Assembly: GCA_016200325.1 (NCBI GenBank) | Contig: JACQEZ010000016.1 | Location: 248,001 to 312,000 of the forward strand | Source of the DNA: Candidatus Manganitrophaceae bacterium | GTDB taxonomy: Bacteria > Nitrospirota > Nitrospiria > SBBL01 > Manganitrophaceae | DNA: 64,000 nucleotides | Reading direction: 5' to 3' | Shown: piece by piece, positions 5,234-17,428 of the stretch | Layout of the letters: the number at the start of each line of letters is the position of its first letter | Position numbering within the stretch: the first letter of the stretch is position 1 | Notes under the pieces: model-generated | What the model saw: only the letters and a program-made list of their open reading frames with translations | Database searches by the model: none | Told to the model about the DNA's origin: nothing | Position numbers and translations under genes: made by a program

Positions 5234-5812
5234 ATGTTTCTTTCCCGTTCCGACCGCGACAAGCTTCTGGGTCTTCTCTTCCAACGCGCCTTCCGCTACA
5301 GCGAGACCCCCACCTTCAAACTGACCTCCGGAAAGATGAGCTCCTTCTACATCGATTGCAAGAAGGTCTCGCTCGATCCCGAGGGGGCATTTCTGATCGG
5401 AGAGCAGATCTTCGATCGAATCAAAACGCTCCCGGTCGATGGCATCGGGGGGATGACCCTGGGAGCCGACCCGATCGCCACCGCCGTCTCCCTCATCAGC
5501 TTCCTGAAAAACAGACCGATTCCCGCCTTCATCGTCCGAAAGGAGCCGAAAGGGCACGGCAGCGAACAGCAAATCGAAGGAACGCTCCCGGCCAACGCCA
5601 AAGTGGTGGTGGTGGAGGATGTCGTCACCACCGGCGGCTCCACCCTCCGGACGATTGAGGTCTTGAGGAAAGCGGGTCACTCGATTTTAAAGGTCATCAC
5701 CCTGATCGACCGGAAGGAAGGGGGAGCCGAGATCATCGGCTCCGAAGGAATCGGCTTCGAATCCCTTTTCACAATCGACGATCTGATGCGCCTGGTCCGG
5801 TTTCAGAAGTAG
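5234..5812 (+). CDS. pyrE: Orotate phosphoribosyltransferase
   Basis: Joins orotate to PRPP to give OMP in pyrimidine synthesis. 192 aa, a normal length. The PRPP-binding motif VVVVEDVVTTGGSTL lies at about residues 118-132, and KMSSFYIDCKKVSL near the N-terminus is the orotate-binding region. It stands alone on the plus strand between two minus-strand blocks, divergent from valS and convergent with the GGDEF-EAL gene. The ATG at 5234 has only a weak purine-rich AGGG upstream. Confidence 0.95.
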   Translation: MFLSRSDRDKLLGLLFQRAFRYSETPTFKLTSGKMSSFYIDCKKVSLDPEGAFLIGEQIFDRIKTLPVDGIGGMTLGADPIATAVSLISFLKNRPIPAFIVRKEPKGHGSEQQIEGTLPANAKVVVVEDVVTTGGSTLRTIEVLRKAGHSILKVITLIDRKEGGAEIIGSEGIGFESLFTIDDLMRLVRFQK

Positions 5813-5863: not shown

Positions 5864-8290
5864 TTATTGCGCATTGGCAAACCACACGCTAAACTCCTCT
5901 GCCGAAACCGGACTGCTGATCGAATAGCCTTGGGCGGCATCGCACCGAAGCCGAGCCAAATGATCCCAGATCTCCCGATTCTCGACCCCTTCTGCGATCA
6001 CTTTCAAACCGAGATGATGAGAGAGATCAATGATCGATCGAACGATGAGGGAGTCTCCTTCATTCGTGTTCATCTCCCGAACAAACGATTTATCGATCTT
6101 GATCGCCTCCACGGGGAGCTTCCTCAGATAACTCAACGATGAATAGCCGATTCCGAAATCATCAATCGAGAAGCGGACCCCGATTTTATTCAGCCGGGTC
6201 AGGGTGGCGATCGCCCGCGCGGGATCGGACATGATGACACTCTCCGTAATCTCCAGCTCCAGCCATTTTCCCTCCAGCTGATGTCGTCTCAACAGATCCG
6301 CGATCTCATCGGGAAAGCGCGAATCTTGGAGGTTCCGCGCCGAGAGATTCACCGCCACGCTCACCTTGACTCCCGCTTCATGCCAGGCCCGACACTGACG
6401 CAGCGCGACATTGAGAACCCAGAAGGTCAGCGGCTCAATGAGCCCGGTCTGCTCGGCAATTCCGATGAACTGGTCCGGAAGGTTGGTCCCATACTGGGGA
6501 TGCTCCCATCGAACGAGCGCCTCGACCCCGGTGACACAATAGGGGGCGATCGTCACCTTCGGCTGGTATTGCAAAAAGAGCTGGTCCTGATCGATCGCCG
6601 ATCTGAGTTCTCCCATTAAGACCAGGCGGCGCGGACTGAATTGATCATGCTCGGCCGTATAGAGCACGCAGCCGCTCCCCTCTTGCTTCGCGGCATACAT
6701 CGCCACATCGGCGCGCTGCAAGAGAAGCGCGGCTCCTTCTCCATGAATCGGAAAGAGCGCCACGCCGATGCTCGCTCCGATATGGAAGTTTAAGCCATTC
6801 AACGTGAAGGGCCGCTCCAAGCCGCGGAGAATTTTCTGTGATGCAGTGATCGCCCCTTCTCTTCCGGTCTCCGGCAGAAGCACTGCGAACTCATCCCCTC
6901 CCAATCTGGCTACGGTATTGGAGGCCCGCAGCACGGCCTGAATCCGCGCCCCGACCTGCTGTAAAAGGGTGTCTCCCATGGAGTGGCCCAAGGTATCATT
7001 GACCTCTTTGAAATGGTCGAGATCTAAAACCAAAAGGGCGACCGGTTTTTCTTCCCGTTTTCCGGCGAGAATCGCCTGCTCCAATCGATCATAGAGGAGG
7101 GTGCGATTGGCCAGGCCGGTCAGGGTGTCGTGCGTTGCTTGATACTCCAACGCCGCCGCTTGCGTCTTTCGCTCGGTGATGTCTTTAAAAATGACGACCG
7201 CTCCCACAATTTGGTCCCGCTCGCGGATCGGCGTCCCGACATACTCTACTGGAAAAGAGTCGTTGTCCTTTCGCCAAAAGAGCTCGTCCGCGACGGAATG
7301 GACATCGGTGTGGGCAAAAGAGGCGTAAATGGCCTGATGCCCTCCCGGAGGTGAGCTCTCAAGCCCACCGGGAGAGCGGGCGATCGAGTGGACCGGCTTT
7401 CCGATGAGCTCCTCTATTTCATAGCCGAGCATCCGCGCCGCGGCCGGATTGACGAAGGTGGCTTTTCCCTCCAGGTCTAATCCATAGATTCCTTCTCCCG
7501 CTGCGCTGAGGATTAATTCGTTTCGTTGCGCCAACTGCTCGCTCATTTGATTGAAACTGCGCGCCAGATCTCCCAGCTCGTCTTTCGAAAGAACCGGAAT
7601 CTTGGCCCCATACTCTCCCCGGCTGATCCGGCGGGTTCCCTCGGAAAGAAGCTGCAGCCGTTGGAGGATCCCCTGAAGAAATACAAAAATAATCCCGAGG
7701 ATCAGCACCCCCATCGCCACGATCATCCAGATGATCTGATTCGATACTTTTCCGGCCGCCTCGAGCGCTTCGCCCATTGGAAATCCGAGCCGAAGGGTTC
7801 CCAGCCGGGTCGCTTCATTCGCCGTCTCTTTCCCCCCCAGGAGCAAGAACTCTTCTCCGGAATCGGCCCGGCGAACGGCCCAAACCGGAAGGGAGAGGTC
7901 GACGACCGACTGCCCGCCGGCCGAAGAAGATCGATAGGCGGGGCGGTCCAATGAAAGCGCCTCCTGTGTGGCCGGGTCATGGTAGCGCTTTCCGGTTTCG
8001 ACCACGTTGGTATGGGCCAAGACATCCCCTTTCTGATTCAACGCAATCGCATAAAGCGCGCCCGTCCGGACGAGTCCCGCCTGCAGCAGCGGCAGCAAAA
8101 GGGCCTCGCCCCCCTGGGCAAAACCGGCGGCCGCCTCTTGCGGCAGATCGACCGCTTTCAGAAGGCCGCGCTTGGAGACCTCATCCATTAAAATGGCACG
8201 CACCACCCGCTTTGAGAGGACGGTCAAAAACCCGCCCGACACCAGTGCGACCGCCAAGAATACCAGAAAAACCTTCGTCTTTAACCTCAC
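5864..8290 (-). CDS. Membrane PAS-GGDEF-EAL c-di-GMP signalling protein
   Basis: Probably makes and/or degrades cyclic di-GMP in response to an envelope signal. Predicted order in an 808 aa protein: membrane segment about 6-27, a periplasmic sensor region of about 150 residues, membrane segment about 186-208, HAMP about 209-261, PAS about 258-372, GGDEF about 382-540 with intact GGDEF at 464-468, then EAL. The EAL half keeps EALVRWEHP, ITESVI, DDFGIGYSS and VIAEGVEN, so both activities look possible. I chose the GTG at 8290 because its GTGA overlaps the stop of the upstream substrate-binding gene; an in-frame ATG at 8347 would overlap far more. It is the last gene of a three-gene operon with that protein and a TonB receptor. 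Confidence 0.92.
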   Translation of the reverse strand: MRLKTKVFLVFLAVALVSGGFLTVLSKRVVRAILMDEVSKRGLLKAVDLPQEAAAGFAQGGEALLLPLLQAGLVRTGALYAIALNQKGDVLAHTNVVETGKRYHDPATQEALSLDRPAYRSSSAGGQSVVDLSLPVWAVRRADSGEEFLLLGGKETANEATRLGTLRLGFPMGEALEAAGKVSNQIIWMIVAMGVLILGIIFVFLQGILQRLQLLSEGTRRISRGEYGAKIPVLSKDELGDLARSFNQMSEQLAQRNELILSAAGEGIYGLDLEGKATFVNPAAARMLGYEIEELIGKPVHSIARSPGGLESSPPGGHQAIYASFAHTDVHSVADELFWRKDNDSFPVEYVGTPIRERDQIVGAVVIFKDITERKTQAAALEYQATHDTLTGLANRTLLYDRLEQAILAGKREEKPVALLVLDLDHFKEVNDTLGHSMGDTLLQQVGARIQAVLRASNTVARLGGDEFAVLLPETGREGAITASQKILRGLERPFTLNGLNFHIGASIGVALFPIHGEGAALLLQRADVAMYAAKQEGSGCVLYTAEHDQFSPRRLVLMGELRSAIDQDQLFLQYQPKVTIAPYCVTGVEALVRWEHPQYGTNLPDQFIGIAEQTGLIEPLTFWVLNVALRQCRAWHEAGVKVSVAVNLSARNLQDSRFPDEIADLLRRHQLEGKWLELEITESVIMSDPARAIATLTRLNKIGVRFSIDDFGIGYSSLSYLRKLPVEAIKIDKSFVREMNTNEGDSLIVRSIIDLSHHLGLKVIAEGVENREIWDHLARLRCDAAQGYSISSPVSAEEFSVWFANAQ

Positions 8291-9177
8291 GGCAATCCTT
8301 TCTTCCGTTCCTCCGGCGGATTCTGAACGATCTCCAGACCGAGCCATTGAGCCATCCGCGGATGCAAGACCACCTCCGCCTGCATCGGATAAAAGGTCCC
8401 TTGAATCCTCTTATCCGCCAGTACTTGCTTGACGGCCATCGCCGCCGTTCGTCCGATTTCCCGAAAGTCGGCCGAGACCGAAGCGGTGGCTCCCTGCTCC
8501 ACCAGACCGGCGATCGGCACGTAAAATGGAATGGCATTGGACCAGGAAAATTCCTTGAGAATTGAAAAATTTCGCAGGGTCACCAGGATCGGATCGGGGG
8601 TGAGCCAGACCGCATCGATCTTGGTATAGAGGGCCCGCAGCCGCTCCGGAAGATCCTTCGGATCACCCAGCTGCTCGGAGAGAATTTCAATTCCGGCCTT
8701 GGCGGAAGCCCGTTGGAGCTCTCGCAAGTCACTCTCCAACGGCTTTGAGGACCAGAAAACCGCGAGCCGTTTGAGCGAAGGTTGAATCTCCTTGATCTTC
8801 GATAAAATTACCTCTGCGCGCGGGAGCATCTGAATCTCGACAACGCTTGGACCAAATTCCTGCGGCGCCAGTTTCGTTCCGGGCGCCATACAATAGACCA
8901 CGGTCACACGGCTCGGATAATGGCGGAGGGCGGCCTTTCCGCCAAACGCAACGACGACCCGCGTTTCGGGACCGATCTCCGGCTCCTCTCTTGAGAGAAG
9001 CGCGGCGGGAACACGGCGGCCTAAGGCATCTTGAAAGCCCTCATACGCTTCCCGATAGGCGGCCACCTCGGAGCTGAGGATGGCAACCACCTCCTCGGCC
9101 CGCGCCAGCGCCGGCCGGTGAATGGCCGAGAAGGCCATCATCGAGAAGAACATCCATTGAGCACCCGCCCGTTTCAT
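8287..9177 (-). CDS. Periplasmic ABC-type substrate-binding protein (orphan)
   Basis: A 296 aa exported protein with a signal peptide (residues about 1-27, ending ALARA). The rest resembles the ABC substrate-binding family often labelled TrpX-like or DUF534: FGGKAALRHYPSRVTVVYCM in the first lobe, RLAVFWSSKP at the hinge, and a second lobe with PFYVPIAGLVEQGATASVS. No ABC permease or ATPase lies nearby, so transport is doubtful. It sits 12 bases after the TonB receptor gene and overlaps the GGDEF-EAL gene by 4 bases. I infer that it is a periplasmic sensing partner of that protein. The ATG at 9177 has a strong GGGGAG ribosome site. The ligand is unknown. Confidence 0.85.
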   Translation of the reverse strand: MKRAGAQWMFFSMMAFSAIHRPALARAEEVVAILSSEVAAYREAYEGFQDALGRRVPAALLSREEPEIGPETRVVVAFGGKAALRHYPSRVTVVYCMAPGTKLAPQEFGPSVVEIQMLPRAEVILSKIKEIQPSLKRLAVFWSSKPLESDLRELQRASAKAGIEILSEQLGDPKDLPERLRALYTKIDAVWLTPDPILVTLRNFSILKEFSWSNAIPFYVPIAGLVEQGATASVSADFREIGRTAAMAVKQVLADKRIQGTFYPMQAEVVLHPRMAQWLGLEIVQNPPEERKKGLP

Positions 9178-9189
9178 CCTCTCCCCTTT

Positions 9190-11094
9190 TCAGAACCGAA
9201 CGGAAACTTCTCCATAGTAGGTCCGGGGTACTTCCAGGCCGTCAAAGTCGATATATTCGCGATGTCGCGGCGAAAGGAGGTTCTGCCCCGCCAGCGCGAC
9301 CTCCACCGAGCGTATGGGACGATAGGCCAGCCGGGCATCGAGCCGCCAATACGCCGGGAACGATTCAATTAGGCTTCGGTTGGCAGGCGCCGTGGTATAC
9401 CCGCTTTTATAGCCGGCATGCATTCCGGCGGAAAAACCGGAGCCGAGATAGACGGTTCCACCGAGGTTCACCTTGTGGCGCGGCGTTGCCGTGGTGATGA
9501 CGACGTCGTCCAACCTATCCTCAATCCGCTCGAACGTGTAGTTAACGTAAGTTGACGTGGCCGGGGTGAGCCAATAAACGAACTTGGTCTCGACCCCGCG
9601 CGCCGCCGCGCGGTTGCGATTGCCGAAAGAAATGATGACCGGCATGGCCGTCGGATCTTCGACAAAGCTGGCGCTCACATCGTCAATTTTCATATAGAAA
9701 AGATTCGATTCGAATTCAAGACGGCCGAGGAAGAAAGTCCCCCGATACCCGGCTTCGTAAGAGTGCAAGCGCTCCGGTCGGAGGCTCGGATTCCCGACAA
9801 TATGGGCCGCGGGGCTTGGAATCTGCATAACCCCCCGTTCATACAGATCAGGAAGGGTCGGCGCCAGGGCGTAGGAGATCCGGAGGGTATGATGTTCGAC
9901 GGGGGTCCAGAGCGCGGCAAGCTGATACGCAGGCTGCCATCCGCTCGTGTTCGAGTCCTCATAAGAAAGCGCCCCCACGAGAATCACGGAATAGAGCGGC
10001 TTGGCGGTTTGATGGACAAACCCGCGGAGAAGCCGACTTCGTTGCGGCGGTTTTTCCAAAAACACTTCCAGAGAAGAGGCCGCGGAATGCCGGTAGTTTC
10101 CCCCCCAGGTCGTCTCGAAGAGCCCGCCGCCCCACCCCTGTCGATAGAGCGCCTCAAGATCAAACTGCGCATAATCGACCTGAGCCAGATCGGGATAGAC
10201 GCCGGCGTTCTGAGCGGTATAGGCGGTCATGATCTCGAGGGAGGCATCCGACGCCACCTGTTTTGAAAACCGCCACATGCCGAAGCCGGTTCGGAACTCT
10301 CCCTCTCGACTTCGTGGGACGGTCATCTCATCCCACGATCCTCCCAAGAAGAGATCCATCTCCGCTCCCGCGGGATGCCACCCTCCTCTAAAATTAACCT
10401 TGTTGGATCGGAGGGAATCCTCTCGCCACCGGCCCGAAGGAGTGACGAAAAAATTCTCGCTTTGATAACTGTAGCTTAAGCGGAAAGGGAACGCTTCTTG
10501 GAAGCGGCTCTGCACAGAAAGGGCCGAGCGAACGGTCTCCTGATTTCCGACATCGGCTCTCGCCGCCAGTGCGTTTTCTTCTTCGGGACGGTGGGTAATA
10601 ATGTTGATGACGCCGAGTCCGGCGTTCGAGCCGTAGAGCGCGGCATTCGGCCCCCGAATAATTTCAATCCGCTCGATGTCTTGGATTTGAACAGGGAGTT
10701 GTTCCCAATCGACCCCGCCTGAGTAGGCGGAATAGACGGAACGACCATCGACGAGGACCAGCATGTTGTTGACATACTCTCTGGGAAAACCGCGGACCGA
10801 AACGATGGCACGGCCGCCGACGCCGGAGCGTGCGTCGAGGACATCCATTCCGACCCTGAAACGGAGTAAATCCCAGAGATGGACCGCACCGGAGGCTTCA
10901 ATTTCTTCGGCGGTGATCACATCGACGGCAACGGGAGACTCTCGTGTCGGCTGGAGACGGCGGGATGCGGTAGTCGTCTTCGCCTCCTCTTCAAAAAGCT
11001 GGAACGGGTCGTCATCGGCTCCCTCTCCCGTCGTTGGGACGAGCACGATCATCCATATCATAAAAACCCAGACGCCGACCCCCTTCACCCGCAC
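9190..11094 (-). CDS. TonB-dependent outer-membrane receptor
   Basis: A 634 aa outer-membrane protein with an N-terminal signal sequence, a plug domain (from about residue 50: SPVAVDVITAEEIEASGA, later IERIEIIRGPNAALYGSNAGLGVINIIT) and a C-terminal 22-strand-type barrel ending in SVRF. The final Phe is the usual BAM signal. The plug motifs resemble receptors for vitamin B12 or siderophores, but the ligand cannot be read from sequence. The GTG at 11094 has only a weak ribosome site, so the start is uncertain by several codons. It heads the operon with a substrate-binding protein and a GGDEF-EAL protein. Confidence 0.93.
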   Translation of the reverse strand: MRVKGVGVWVFMIWMIVLVPTTGEGADDDPFQLFEEEAKTTTASRRLQPTRESPVAVDVITAEEIEASGAVHLWDLLRFRVGMDVLDARSGVGGRAIVSVRGFPREYVNNMLVLVDGRSVYSAYSGGVDWEQLPVQIQDIERIEIIRGPNAALYGSNAGLGVINIITHRPEEENALAARADVGNQETVRSALSVQSRFQEAFPFRLSYSYQSENFFVTPSGRWREDSLRSNKVNFRGGWHPAGAEMDLFLGGSWDEMTVPRSREGEFRTGFGMWRFSKQVASDASLEIMTAYTAQNAGVYPDLAQVDYAQFDLEALYRQGWGGGLFETTWGGNYRHSAASSLEVFLEKPPQRSRLLRGFVHQTAKPLYSVILVGALSYEDSNTSGWQPAYQLAALWTPVEHHTLRISYALAPTLPDLYERGVMQIPSPAAHIVGNPSLRPERLHSYEAGYRGTFFLGRLEFESNLFYMKIDDVSASFVEDPTAMPVIISFGNRNRAAARGVETKFVYWLTPATSTYVNYTFERIEDRLDDVVITTATPRHKVNLGGTVYLGSGFSAGMHAGYKSGYTTAPANRSLIESFPAYWRLDARLAYRPIRSVEVALAGQNLLSPRHREYIDFDGLEVPRTYYGEVSVRF

Positions 11095-11236
11095 CCCACT
11101 TCAGCCGGCCATCCCACCAATGGCTTCTTATACGGTATTGGAGCTCCAAAAAGGACATTCGATTTCTGAAGAAGGCAATCTGGATTTCTAGCGTCTTTGC
11201 GCTGATTTTCCGAAGGCATACAGTTGGCCCATTCAT

Positions 11237-11265
11237 TGTGTAATGAAAAAGATACATTTTGTCAA
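11237..11265 (-). promoter_or_regulatory. Candidate promoter of the TonB receptor operon
   Basis: Read on the minus strand, TTGACA (11265-11260) is followed after 17 bases by TACACA (11242-11237) in an AT-rich stretch upstream of the receptor gene. The -35 is perfect and the -10 matches the consensus at three positions. The leader would be about 140 bases. Confidence 0.35.
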
Positions 11266-11354
11266 TTATCAAATTGGATTTGTTTCATTTTCATCGCGGA
11301 GGTCAGTAAGATCATGCAGAAAAATATAAATTATTATGTAACACTAATTACGTA

Positions 11355-11440
11355 TGCGAGGGTGAGCGCAAGAAAAGCTGTTTTCTAAACAGGCAGACCG
11401 ACAAAAGGTCACCCTGAGCCCGAAAGGGATTGAACAGGTA
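11355..11440 (+). ncRNA. Potentially structured leader RNA upstream of the VPLPA-CTERM gene
   Basis: Several complementary segments cluster here. AGGGTGA (11359-11365) pairs with TCACCCT (11409-11415) and encloses CTGTTT/AAACAG (11378-11383 with 11387-11392). Next comes CCC-GAAA-GGG (11419-11428), itself inside CCTG/CAGG (11413-11416 with 11435-11438). The CCTG/CAGG pair competes with the outer stem, as a switching RNA would. The segment lies about 110 bases ahead of the ATG at 11547, in the same direction. I could not match it to a riboswitch class by eye. Confidence 0.35.
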
Positions 11441-11546
11441 AAAACAATATTTTCTTTTGGGATTCTACATTGACAAAAATCACTTTGTGTGTGACGCTAG
11501 ACATCGGCGATCAGCCATCTGTCTTATTCCATGGAGGGGTTCTCTT

Positions 11547-12203
11547 ATGCGGCGAGTACACCGATTGCTGCTGTCGGCTCTGTTCGTATCGTTCCTTCAT
11601 CTCCTTCTCATGACATCCCCCGCTTCAGCGGACACCATTAACGTCGGCGTCCTCAGTTTCGGCCTGTTCAACGGAGGCGCGGCGGGAGGACCCTCGAAAA
11701 ACACCTTCGCGATCGGCAATTTCACCGGCGCTCCGGCCAACGGCGGCTGGGCGGCCCCTCCCATCGCCCCTGTTTTTACCCCGCTGATCTTTAAAGACAG
11801 TCTGCTGGTGCTCACACATGAGGATGGGACGGTGCAGCGGATTGATCTGGGCGGGATCGGCCCGAGCTTGTATGGCTTTTTCGGAACCGATCCGACCGGC
11901 CAATTAAAATTTCCGGAGACGGAAAAGTTTCGCTCCGCACAGTTCACCGCCACACTCAGTGAAGACCGGTTTCGCTTATATGACGGCCGGATCTTTGAGC
12001 CGAGCGCGCTTTCTTTCTCTTCCGAATTGACCAATCTTTTAACCGGCAGCGGCACCTCTTGGATCACGGTCACCGGCGCAATCTCTCCGGTACCCCTTCC
12101 GGCCGCATGGCTTCTGATGGGGAGCGGGCTGGCAGGCCTTTGGTTATTGGGGCAGGCGCGATATGCGAGCGATCGGAAAACTGGTGCGCCTGGCAGGAAT
12201 TGA
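11547..12203 (+). CDS. Secreted protein with VPLPA-CTERM sorting signal
   Basis: 218 aa from the ATG at 11547, chosen because it has a GGAGGGG ribosome site and is followed directly by a signal peptide (about residues 1-28, ending ASA). In-frame codons further upstream have no such support. The body has no domain I recognise. The tail is VPLPAAWLLMGSGLAGLWLL followed by basic residues, the VPLPA variant of the PEP-CTERM signal: conserved motif, membrane helix, positive end. Such proteins are cut and sorted by an exosortase, often with exopolysaccharide. No exosortase is in this window. The last codons (GAPGRN and TGA) lie inside the 3' part of the opposing tRNA-Arg gene. Confidence 0.8.
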   Translation: MRRVHRLLLSALFVSFLHLLLMTSPASADTINVGVLSFGLFNGGAAGGPSKNTFAIGNFTGAPANGGWAAPPIAPVFTPLIFKDSLLVLTHEDGTVQRIDLGGIGPSLYGFFGTDPTGQLKFPETEKFRSAQFTATLSEDRFRLYDGRIFEPSALSFSSELTNLLTGSGTSWITVTGAISPVPLPAAWLLMGSGLAGLWLLGQARYASDRKTGAPGRN

Positions 12204-16077: not shown

Positions 16078-17049
16078 TCATTGCGCGGGAGGAGGGGGCG
16101 GGGCGGTCTGCGTCAACAAGGCCGCCAAAAGGAGGGTCACCGTGGCGAGACCAACCTCGATCAGGATCAATCGAGAGAAACGGCGCTCCAATTCGGGCGC
16201 CGATCTTTCGACCCGATACAGAGAAGGGAGGATGTAGATCCGGCTCACCCCTCCCATCCCGATCGCCGACGCGGCCAAGAGCAGCTTCGTTAAAAGGACC
16301 TGCCCATAGTTGAAATCAAAAATCCAATGCCGGTCCAAAAACAGAAAGGCATTATAGCTGCCGGTCGTGACGATTAGGGCAACCGCCACGATGGCCCACT
16401 TCGAAAAGGTGCCGATGAGGGTCCGGAGAAAGAGCGCCAGACGATCCGGCGCCATCCAGACGGCCCCTTTGCTCGCCAAACGCCGCAGCGGGAGAAGCCC
16501 TCCGATCCAGATCGAGACCGCAGTGAGATGAACCCAATCCGAGAAGACCGCCCCTTGCGCGACGCCGTGCGTAAAGGGATGTCCCACCAGACTCTCCGTG
16601 ACGCAGAGGAAGAGGCCACATCCGAAGAGGAGAGGGTCTCTCAATCGGAATCGGATTCGAATCAGGATAAAAAGAAAGAGAAGGAGGAAAAGCTTGATCA
16701 CCCAGATCGATCCGAAATGGGTTTTCGTCAGGACAATCGGCAACACCGGAAGAATGTCGGAGAGCGGCTTTCCGCTCATCATCTCCGCCTGATGCACCCA
16801 GGTGATGAAATGGAGGACGATCAGATAGACAAGAAGGCCCCGCAGCGCCGGCTCGGTATAGGCCGCTTCTTCCCGTCGCAGCCGCTCTTCTATACTGGGA
16901 TCGCGGAGCGCTTTTAAAGAAGGGCGAAAAACCAGGAGGCGAAATCCGAGCGCGCCGATCCAGAGGACGATCCCGATGATGTCGAACCATTTGAAAAGGG
17001 CCATCCTGAAGAGGTGAGAATCAATCAGATGAGAAAGCGGTTGCGCCAT
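16078..17049 (-). CDS. copD: CopD-family copper resistance membrane protein
   Basis: A 323 aa inner-membrane protein with about eight predicted helices, ending in a Pro-rich tail. The CopD domain signature WVHLTAVSIWIGGLLPL is present. His residues lie in HFITWVHQAEM and GHPFTHGV, placed as metal ligands would be. It probably moves or handles copper together with CopC. Its gene starts 4 bases after the copC stop, and the two form an operon with the outer-membrane protein gene upstream. The direction of transport cannot be read from sequence. Confidence 0.88.
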   Translation of the reverse strand: MAQPLSHLIDSHLFRMALFKWFDIIGIVLWIGALGFRLLVFRPSLKALRDPSIEERLRREEAAYTEPALRGLLVYLIVLHFITWVHQAEMMSGKPLSDILPVLPIVLTKTHFGSIWVIKLFLLLFLFILIRIRFRLRDPLLFGCGLFLCVTESLVGHPFTHGVAQGAVFSDWVHLTAVSIWIGGLLPLRRLASKGAVWMAPDRLALFLRTLIGTFSKWAIVAVALIVTTGSYNAFLFLDRHWIFDFNYGQVLLTKLLLAASAIGMGGVSRIYILPSLYRVERSAPELERRFSRLILIEVGLATVTLLLAALLTQTAPPPPPAQ

Positions 17050-17053
17050 GATC

Positions 17054-17428
17054 TCACTTTACAGTAAATGTAAAATCCCCCTCGGTCCGATGGGTGTCTA
17101 TCGCCACCACCTCCCAATTCACCCGATATTTTCCCGGACTCAAAGGGGGGACGGAGACGATCAGGACGTTATGTTCCTTCTCATCGACCTTCGCATCTTT
17201 TGCATCGACCTCTTTGCCATCCGGTCCCGTGACCTTCAGGCTGCTGAACGCCGGCTCAATGTCGCCGTCAAACCAGATCTTTACCTGGGCCGGAGACTGT
17301 TTCACCTCCGACCCGACCCTCGGCTCCGAGCGCATCGGAAAAGCATGCGCCCAGACCGAAGATCCCCAAAACAAGAGAAACAAGACGGAGGCGAAATAGG
17401 ATCCGATATTCATTCGATGCGCGCTCAT
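17054..17428 (-). CDS. copC: CopC-family periplasmic copper-binding protein
   Basis: A 124 aa exported protein with a signal peptide cut near WAHAF, leaving His at or near the mature N-terminus, a copper ligand in CopC proteins. The Greek-key fold is indicated by HAFPMRSEPRVG, IWFDGDIEP, SLKVTGPDGK and the end THRTEGDFTFTV, where the last His is the second ligand region. The usual Met-rich Cu(I) loop is not seen, which suggests Cu(II) binding. ATG at 17428, or a later ATG at 17413, could start it. It overlaps nothing and couples tightly to copD. Confidence 0.9.
   Translation of the reverse strand: MSAHRMNIGSYFASVLFLLFWGSSVWAHAFPMRSEPRVGSEVKQSPAQVKIWFDGDIEPAFSSLKVTGPDGKEVDAKDAKVDEKEHNVLIVSVPPLSPGKYRVNWEVVAIDTHRTEGDFTFTVK

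Follow-up and report, generated by a model that had tools for sequence, protein, structure and literature searches.

The Genes at the Locus

The region considered here lies in a stretch of 64,000 nucleotides from a Candidatus Manganitrophaceae bacterium (Nitrospirota), referred to below as the window. Positions 5864-11094 carry, on the minus strand, three genes in the order TonB-dependent outer-membrane receptor, periplasmic binding protein of family PF04392 (SBP), and a protein with sCache, HAMP, PAS, GGDEF, and EAL domains (the sensor). A gap of 12 bases (9178..9189, minus strand) separates the receptor and SBP genes, and the stop codon of the SBP gene overlaps the start of the sensor gene by four bases, GTGA (8287..8290, minus strand). 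The triplet is flanked on the plus strand by a gene named by eye as pyrE (5234-5812) and, at the other end, by a gene at 11457-12203, whose product has no Pfam match and may be an exported protein of the PEP-CTERM type (C-terminal VPLPAAWLLMGSGLAGL). Farther along, at 16078-17428, is a pair of CopD- and CopC-like (copper) genes, judged by eye only. Scans for promoters and terminators found no dependable operon promoter for the triplet.

The receptor (634 amino acids; 9190..11094, minus strand) matches the Pfam Plug domain (E = 1.6e-23) and the barrel domain TonB_dep_Rec (E = 1.9e-27), and its N-terminus has a stretch, FQLFEEEAKTTTASR, that looks like a TonB box region. Its best relatives in NCBIfam are the OmpS/TOL_0244 receptors (NF053590; TOL_0244 is from Thalassolituus). 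The match, at 225 bits, is far under the cut-off of 645 bits, and the receptor is therefore not a member of that family. OmpS of Alcanivorax has been reported to detect alkanes and to trigger a chemotaxis response (PMC6304351), an identity that was rejected for the receptor on the strength of the score.

One might suppose that the receptor itself signals, as a transducer of the FecA type, and that the SBP is incidental. As in FecA/FecR/FecI, an outer-membrane TonB receptor is linked to an inner-membrane regulator, here by a shared operon, but Pfam finds only Plug and barrel in the receptor (the plug starting at residue 50) and no STN signalling domain at its N-terminus, the neighbors of the operon show no evident FecR or ECF sigma factor, and an SBP stands in between. 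I consider this explanation very improbable.

The SBP (296 amino acids; 8287..9177, minus strand) has a hydrophobic, signal-peptide-like N-terminus and matches PF04392 with an E-value of 2.8e-13 and a score of 50.2 bits, above the curated cut-off of 25.9. Its AlphaFold model, made from a small alignment (pLDDT 79.8), has the type I binding-protein fold, with TrpX (3lft) and a protein of V. cholerae (3lkv) as best matches in the PDB and, among further structural matches, XylFII and the LuxP of the LuxPQ complex (2hj9). The gene has no cognate partners nearby: no ABC ATPase motif was found within the first 20 kb of the window, nor any candidate for a permease of the PF04392-importer type among the ORFs of the same 20 kb.

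The sensor (5864-8290, minus strand) has 808 amino acids counted from its GTG start, the mechanically called ORF beginning upstream at ATG 8347. Its input half (residues 1-257; 7520..8290, minus strand) consists of a first transmembrane segment, a periplasmic sCache domain (sCache_3_2, E = 3e-7), a second transmembrane segment, and HAMP (1.3e-13), the transmembrane-like segments lying near residues 3-27 and 182-215. An AlphaFold model from a small alignment (pLDDT 78.9) places a CitA/WalK-like sCache domain between two helices. The output half (5864..7519, minus strand) comprises PAS (2.4e-12), GGDEF (1.1e-47), and EAL (2e-70). Both catalytic motifs are intact, that of EAL in all its parts (EALVR, VNLS, LEITE, DDFG, KID, AEGVE, QGY), and the inhibitory I-site of the GGDEF domain is degenerate (RASN for RxxD).

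A preliminary description of this DNA had reported three genes, 12 bases apart and then overlapping by four, that encode an outer-membrane receptor, a binding protein with no ABC permease or ATPase nearby, and an inner-membrane protein with a periplasmic sensor region and intact GGDEF and EAL motifs. All of this agrees with the coordinates, domain matches, and motifs given above.

Neighborhoods of PF04392 Genes in Other Genomes

The same description took the orphan state of the SBP as a hint that its job is something other than transport, and proposed that relatives be searched for co-occurrence of the three families. I scored 101 PF04392 SBP loci, from Nitrospirota except for two from Elusimicrobia, in a sample chosen partly by similarity, with many draft assemblies, and annotated with home-made profiles and simple ORF calling; these limits probably affect the counts but not their direction. 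The gene next to the SBP encodes a membrane signal transducer in 85 of the 101 loci: a histidine kinase (HK) in 62, an MCP chemoreceptor in 14, a GGDEF-EAL protein in 6, and an HD-GYP protein in 3. The remaining 16 have in this place a contig end, an unidentified gene, a gene on the opposite strand, or an ABC gene. Only 3 of the 101 SBPs have an ABC ATPase gene at a distance of three genes or less. A less biased sample of 61 PF04392 SBPs gave a similar picture (HK 32, MCP 12, HD-GYP 3, GGDEF-EAL 2, ABC ATPase nearby 3), and the output domains of representatives were confirmed by Pfam. A search of genome contigs with a single SBP as query returned no match, and one with a profile of seven SBPs returned six loci.

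The SBP and sensor genes are typically joined or nearly so: 73 of 80 measured pairs are spaced by 20 bp or less, and the exact overlap of four bases seen in the window is the commonest spacing (33/80). A TonB receptor lies near the SBP in 58 of the 101 loci and an MtrB-like barrel in 17 more, an association less constant than that of SBP and sensor. The preliminary description remarked that the gene order follows the envelope from outside to inside, which is true of the window but fails as a strict rule, some loci having the TonB gene last or an MtrB-like barrel instead.

These counts bear on the possibility that the SBP feeds an ABC importer whose genes lie at another site of the genome, the SBP's place in the operon merely coupling uptake to regulation. 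In other bacteria PF04392 proteins are importer SBPs, and permease and ATPase genes adjoin the SBP in plasmid loci of Salinivibrio and Pseudomonas, outside the surveyed phyla. Likewise, the SBP shares family and fold with that of importers of the TrpXYZ type (3lft), but the window has no adjacent permease or ATPase, the sensor standing in their place. Matches to the permease family PF02653 in the window's genome amount to only two pairs (genes named by eye, not by family scan), one directly downstream of its own SBP-like gene and the other in a cluster that also includes a urease-like gene and an ATPase. Given also the ATPase count of 3 in 101, there is little chance that such an importer explains the SBP. 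The counts of 85 and 3 instead lend strong support, at the level of gene neighborhoods, to the core of the preliminary suggestion, that the SBP serves the sensor rather than an ABC importer. The result named there as one that would speak against signalling, an SBP usually beside permease and ATPase genes in relatives, was not obtained among Nitrospirota and Elusimicrobia.

The Elusimicrobia loci and a Geobacter plasmid have TonB, SBP, and HK genes together, in Geobacter in the order TonB-SBP-HK-response regulator (RR). Set against the SBP-permease-ATPase order of the Salinivibrio and Pseudomonas loci, this arrangement indicates that PF04392 has two uses, and judging from its neighborhoods the branch that holds the window's SBP belongs to signalling.

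Genomes from three families of Nitrospirota (f1, f19, f35) have the order TonB-SBP-GGDEF-EAL. In a tree of the SBPs, a quick one with SH-aLRT support only, GGDEF-EAL output requires at least three changes, leading to the window, to the group G100/G071/G062/G126, and to G291. One might yet regard the triplet as a chance neighborhood or an artefact of assembly or annotation, since it comes from a single genome and its architecture is rare (6/101). Against this are the recurrence of the order in three families, the roughly 50% identity of its parts to those of a sister HK triplet, and the recurrent overlap of four bases, which leave that explanation almost no credence. Recurring as it does in several families and phyla, the arrangement is more than chance.

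Several other loci are of note. The window's own genome has a second TonB-SBP-HK-RR module (L047, G000:C9:113000-131000, at 6038-12078), whose SBP is about 25% identical to that of the window. In eight loci (L153, L118, L143, L144, L145, L147, L192, and L196) a PF04392 SBP lies between an MtrB/PioB-like barrel and a chemoreceptor, possibly linking taxis to an outer-membrane conduit or porin; in L153 the barrel's Pfam match is weak (2.4e-8) and the chemoreceptor is sCache-HAMP-MCP. The SBP-adjoining chemoreceptors of L119 (3744-6641) and L121 (2846-5749) have a phosphonate-type SBP domain (PF12974) C-terminal to MCP, an odd position for a periplasmic domain. L100 (G184:C90:25133-27877) has an ORF of 1271 amino acids with three tandem PF04392 domains, adjoining an ABC ATPase gene. 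In L098, L099, and L097 an HD-GYP protein comes after the SBP (its domains in L098 are dCache-HAMP-HD), which gives a third route from the SBP family to c-di-GMP. Finally, L111 (5814-7749, G062) has TonB and SBP genes followed by a truncated GGDEF-EAL remnant lacking the sensor input half, a cassette in decay.

Sister Triplets with Histidine Kinases

Relatives in the same genus and the same class keep the order TonB-SBP-sensor, with SBPs 42-56% identical to that of the window. Sister triplets in which the sensor is a histidine kinase are similar to the window throughout the SBP (about 51% identity), the sensor input half (52%), and the receptor (50%), and the start of their sensor gene overlaps the end of the SBP gene in like manner. 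The similarity of the sensors stops at residue 253, just past HAMP, beyond which the sister proteins end in HisKA-HATPase and that of the window continues with PAS-GGDEF-EAL. Relatives therefore keep what is probably one sensing line and vary the switch in which it ends at the inner membrane, a pattern suggesting that the SBP is there for signalling rather than food uptake.

In several relatives, a gene for a receiver-only regulator and one for an RR-GAF-GGDEF-HD protein adjoin the HK triplet, and in genomes of the same genus a small kinase does so as well. The HD domain of the RR-GAF-GGDEF-HD protein keeps both HHE and GYP. By its proximity, the sister kinase presumably phosphorylates this regulator. 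With that protein beside the kinase of the sisters, the link of the input to c-di-GMP is supported twice. Both versions plausibly end in c-di-GMP, the sisters through phosphotransfer and the window directly through its GGDEF-EAL protein.

There is a simpler way to read the sensor: the sCache domain might bind the ligand directly, the SBP only buffering or carrying it and the TonB receptor only importing it, with the genes co-regulated and no physical chain among them. The model of the sensor resembles domains of CitA, DcuS, and WalK, among which there are several cases of direct binding of small ligands. Because CitA-type sCache domains themselves bind such ligands, the SBP may be dispensable, and the adjacency of TonB varies between loci. 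On the other hand, the genes for SBP and sensor overlap, or nearly so, while output and barrel change, a persistence that a physical pair fits better than loose co-regulation. I judge direct binding by sCache to be unlikely, though it merits more attention than the other alternatives, and take a physical pairing of SBP and sensor as the preferred reading.

Origin of the Triplet

The HK triplet of the sister genomes has queE on one side and the RR genes on the other. The corresponding site in the window's genome retains the neighbors, with identities to the sisters of 79% (queE), 82% (RR-GAF-GGDEF-HD), 89% (RR), and 66% (small kinase). The triplet is missing from the site and a gap of 1 kb remains, in which there is a scar of 112 bp (L204, 10212-10323) that is 72% identical (E = 5e-11) to the junction of the SBP and kinase genes in the sisters. 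Translated, the scar recalls the C-terminus of the SBP and the N-terminus of the kinase. The window's triplet sits between pyrE and valS, where the sisters have none. With the ancestral HK triplet lost and a GGDEF-EAL triplet present elsewhere in the genome, the phosphotransfer route of the sisters would be direct here.

Plain relocation of the sister triplet was rejected: the triplet is about 50% identical to its sisters while the neighboring genes are 66-89% identical, so a distinct copy is likelier than a moved original. Replacement of the ancestral HK triplet by a distinct copy fits these identities better. The SBP is equally close to proteins from other families (56% identity to that of G036) and to those of its own genus. 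The composition of the triplet (58.1% GC, as compared to 58.5% for the window; GC3 of 66-68%, as compared to 67-77% for seven neighbors) does not separate horizontal transfer from old paralogy.

Comparison with Known Systems

Activation of kinases, chemoreceptors, and c-di-GMP enzymes by SBPs of many families is established (PMC9602780). The closest parallel is NspS-MbaA of Vibrio cholerae, with homologues in Sinorhizobium, in which a liganded SBP controls c-di-GMP (PMC8079147, PMC9993111) by inhibiting the phosphodiesterase and favoring the cyclase (PMC8079147). There, as in the window with its GTGA overlap, the SBP gene lies immediately upstream of a gene for a GGDEF-EAL protein of the inner membrane whose sensor region is periplasmic. 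The two systems differ in their motifs (SGDEF/EVL in MbaA, GGDEF/EAL in the window), in the TonB receptor that the window has of its own and that is lacking from the NspS-MbaA unit as described, and in the SBP. NspS is a polyamine-binding, PotD-like protein; that of the window belongs not to the NspS/PotD family but to PF04392, with a type I fold like that of TrpX and LuxP. LuxP-LuxQ and XylFII-LytS, in which SBPs activate histidine kinases, share the type I fold, and the sister HK triplets match their logic. They differ from the window in SBP subfamily, in kinase output, and in having no TonB receptor in the unit. The best reading, by analogy, is that the cassette would work like NspS-MbaA or LuxPQ, though its SBP comes from another family and it has an outer-membrane receptor of its own.

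By the same analogy, the mechanism best supported is one in which the SBP gates a bifunctional c-di-GMP enzyme. The TonB receptor would admit (or sense) a scarce ligand, which the PF04392 SBP would capture in the periplasm. The liganded SBP would then dock onto the sCache domain of the inner-membrane protein, and HAMP and PAS would relay the change, shifting the balance between synthesis of c-di-GMP by GGDEF and its breakdown by EAL. Of the signalling line drawn in the preliminary description, the service of the SBP to the sensor and the link to c-di-GMP are supported by the survey counts and the sister triplets. The contacts of the receptor and the SBP with their partners, the flow of ligand through the receptor, and the direction of the change in c-di-GMP are what I infer beyond them.

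A Probable Cassette with Exchangeable Outputs

A point absent from the preliminary description is that, on the comparison of sequences, the cassette is widespread and the window's triplet represents one of its output variants. I think it probable that the three genes form a single trans-envelope sensory cassette, of a family common across Nitrospirota in which the input is conserved and the output (HK, GGDEF-EAL, HD-GYP, or chemoreceptor) exchangeable. With somewhat less assurance, I would extend this to propose that PF04392 SBPs in Nitrospirota, and at least some in Elusimicrobia and Geobacter, are mainly sensory couplers, that barrel, SBP, cache, and HAMP make up a portable input with swappable outputs, and that the TonB receptor serves as a gate. 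Searches of the literature that paired PF04392 with kinases or with TonB turned up no account of such a cassette.

For most GGDEF/EAL proteins no ligand is known, and TonB receptors tend to be regarded as transporters alone. The natural swap of outputs, the orphaned partner genes, and the scar together provide independent evidence that one input can be wired either to phosphotransfer or directly to c-di-GMP. The cassette offers a rule by which signalling SBPs may be recognized, and the label of ABC transporter that is automatically given to PF04392 genes in the surveyed phyla is probably wrong in most cases. Its output variants are ready-made natural chimaeras for the finding of ligands.
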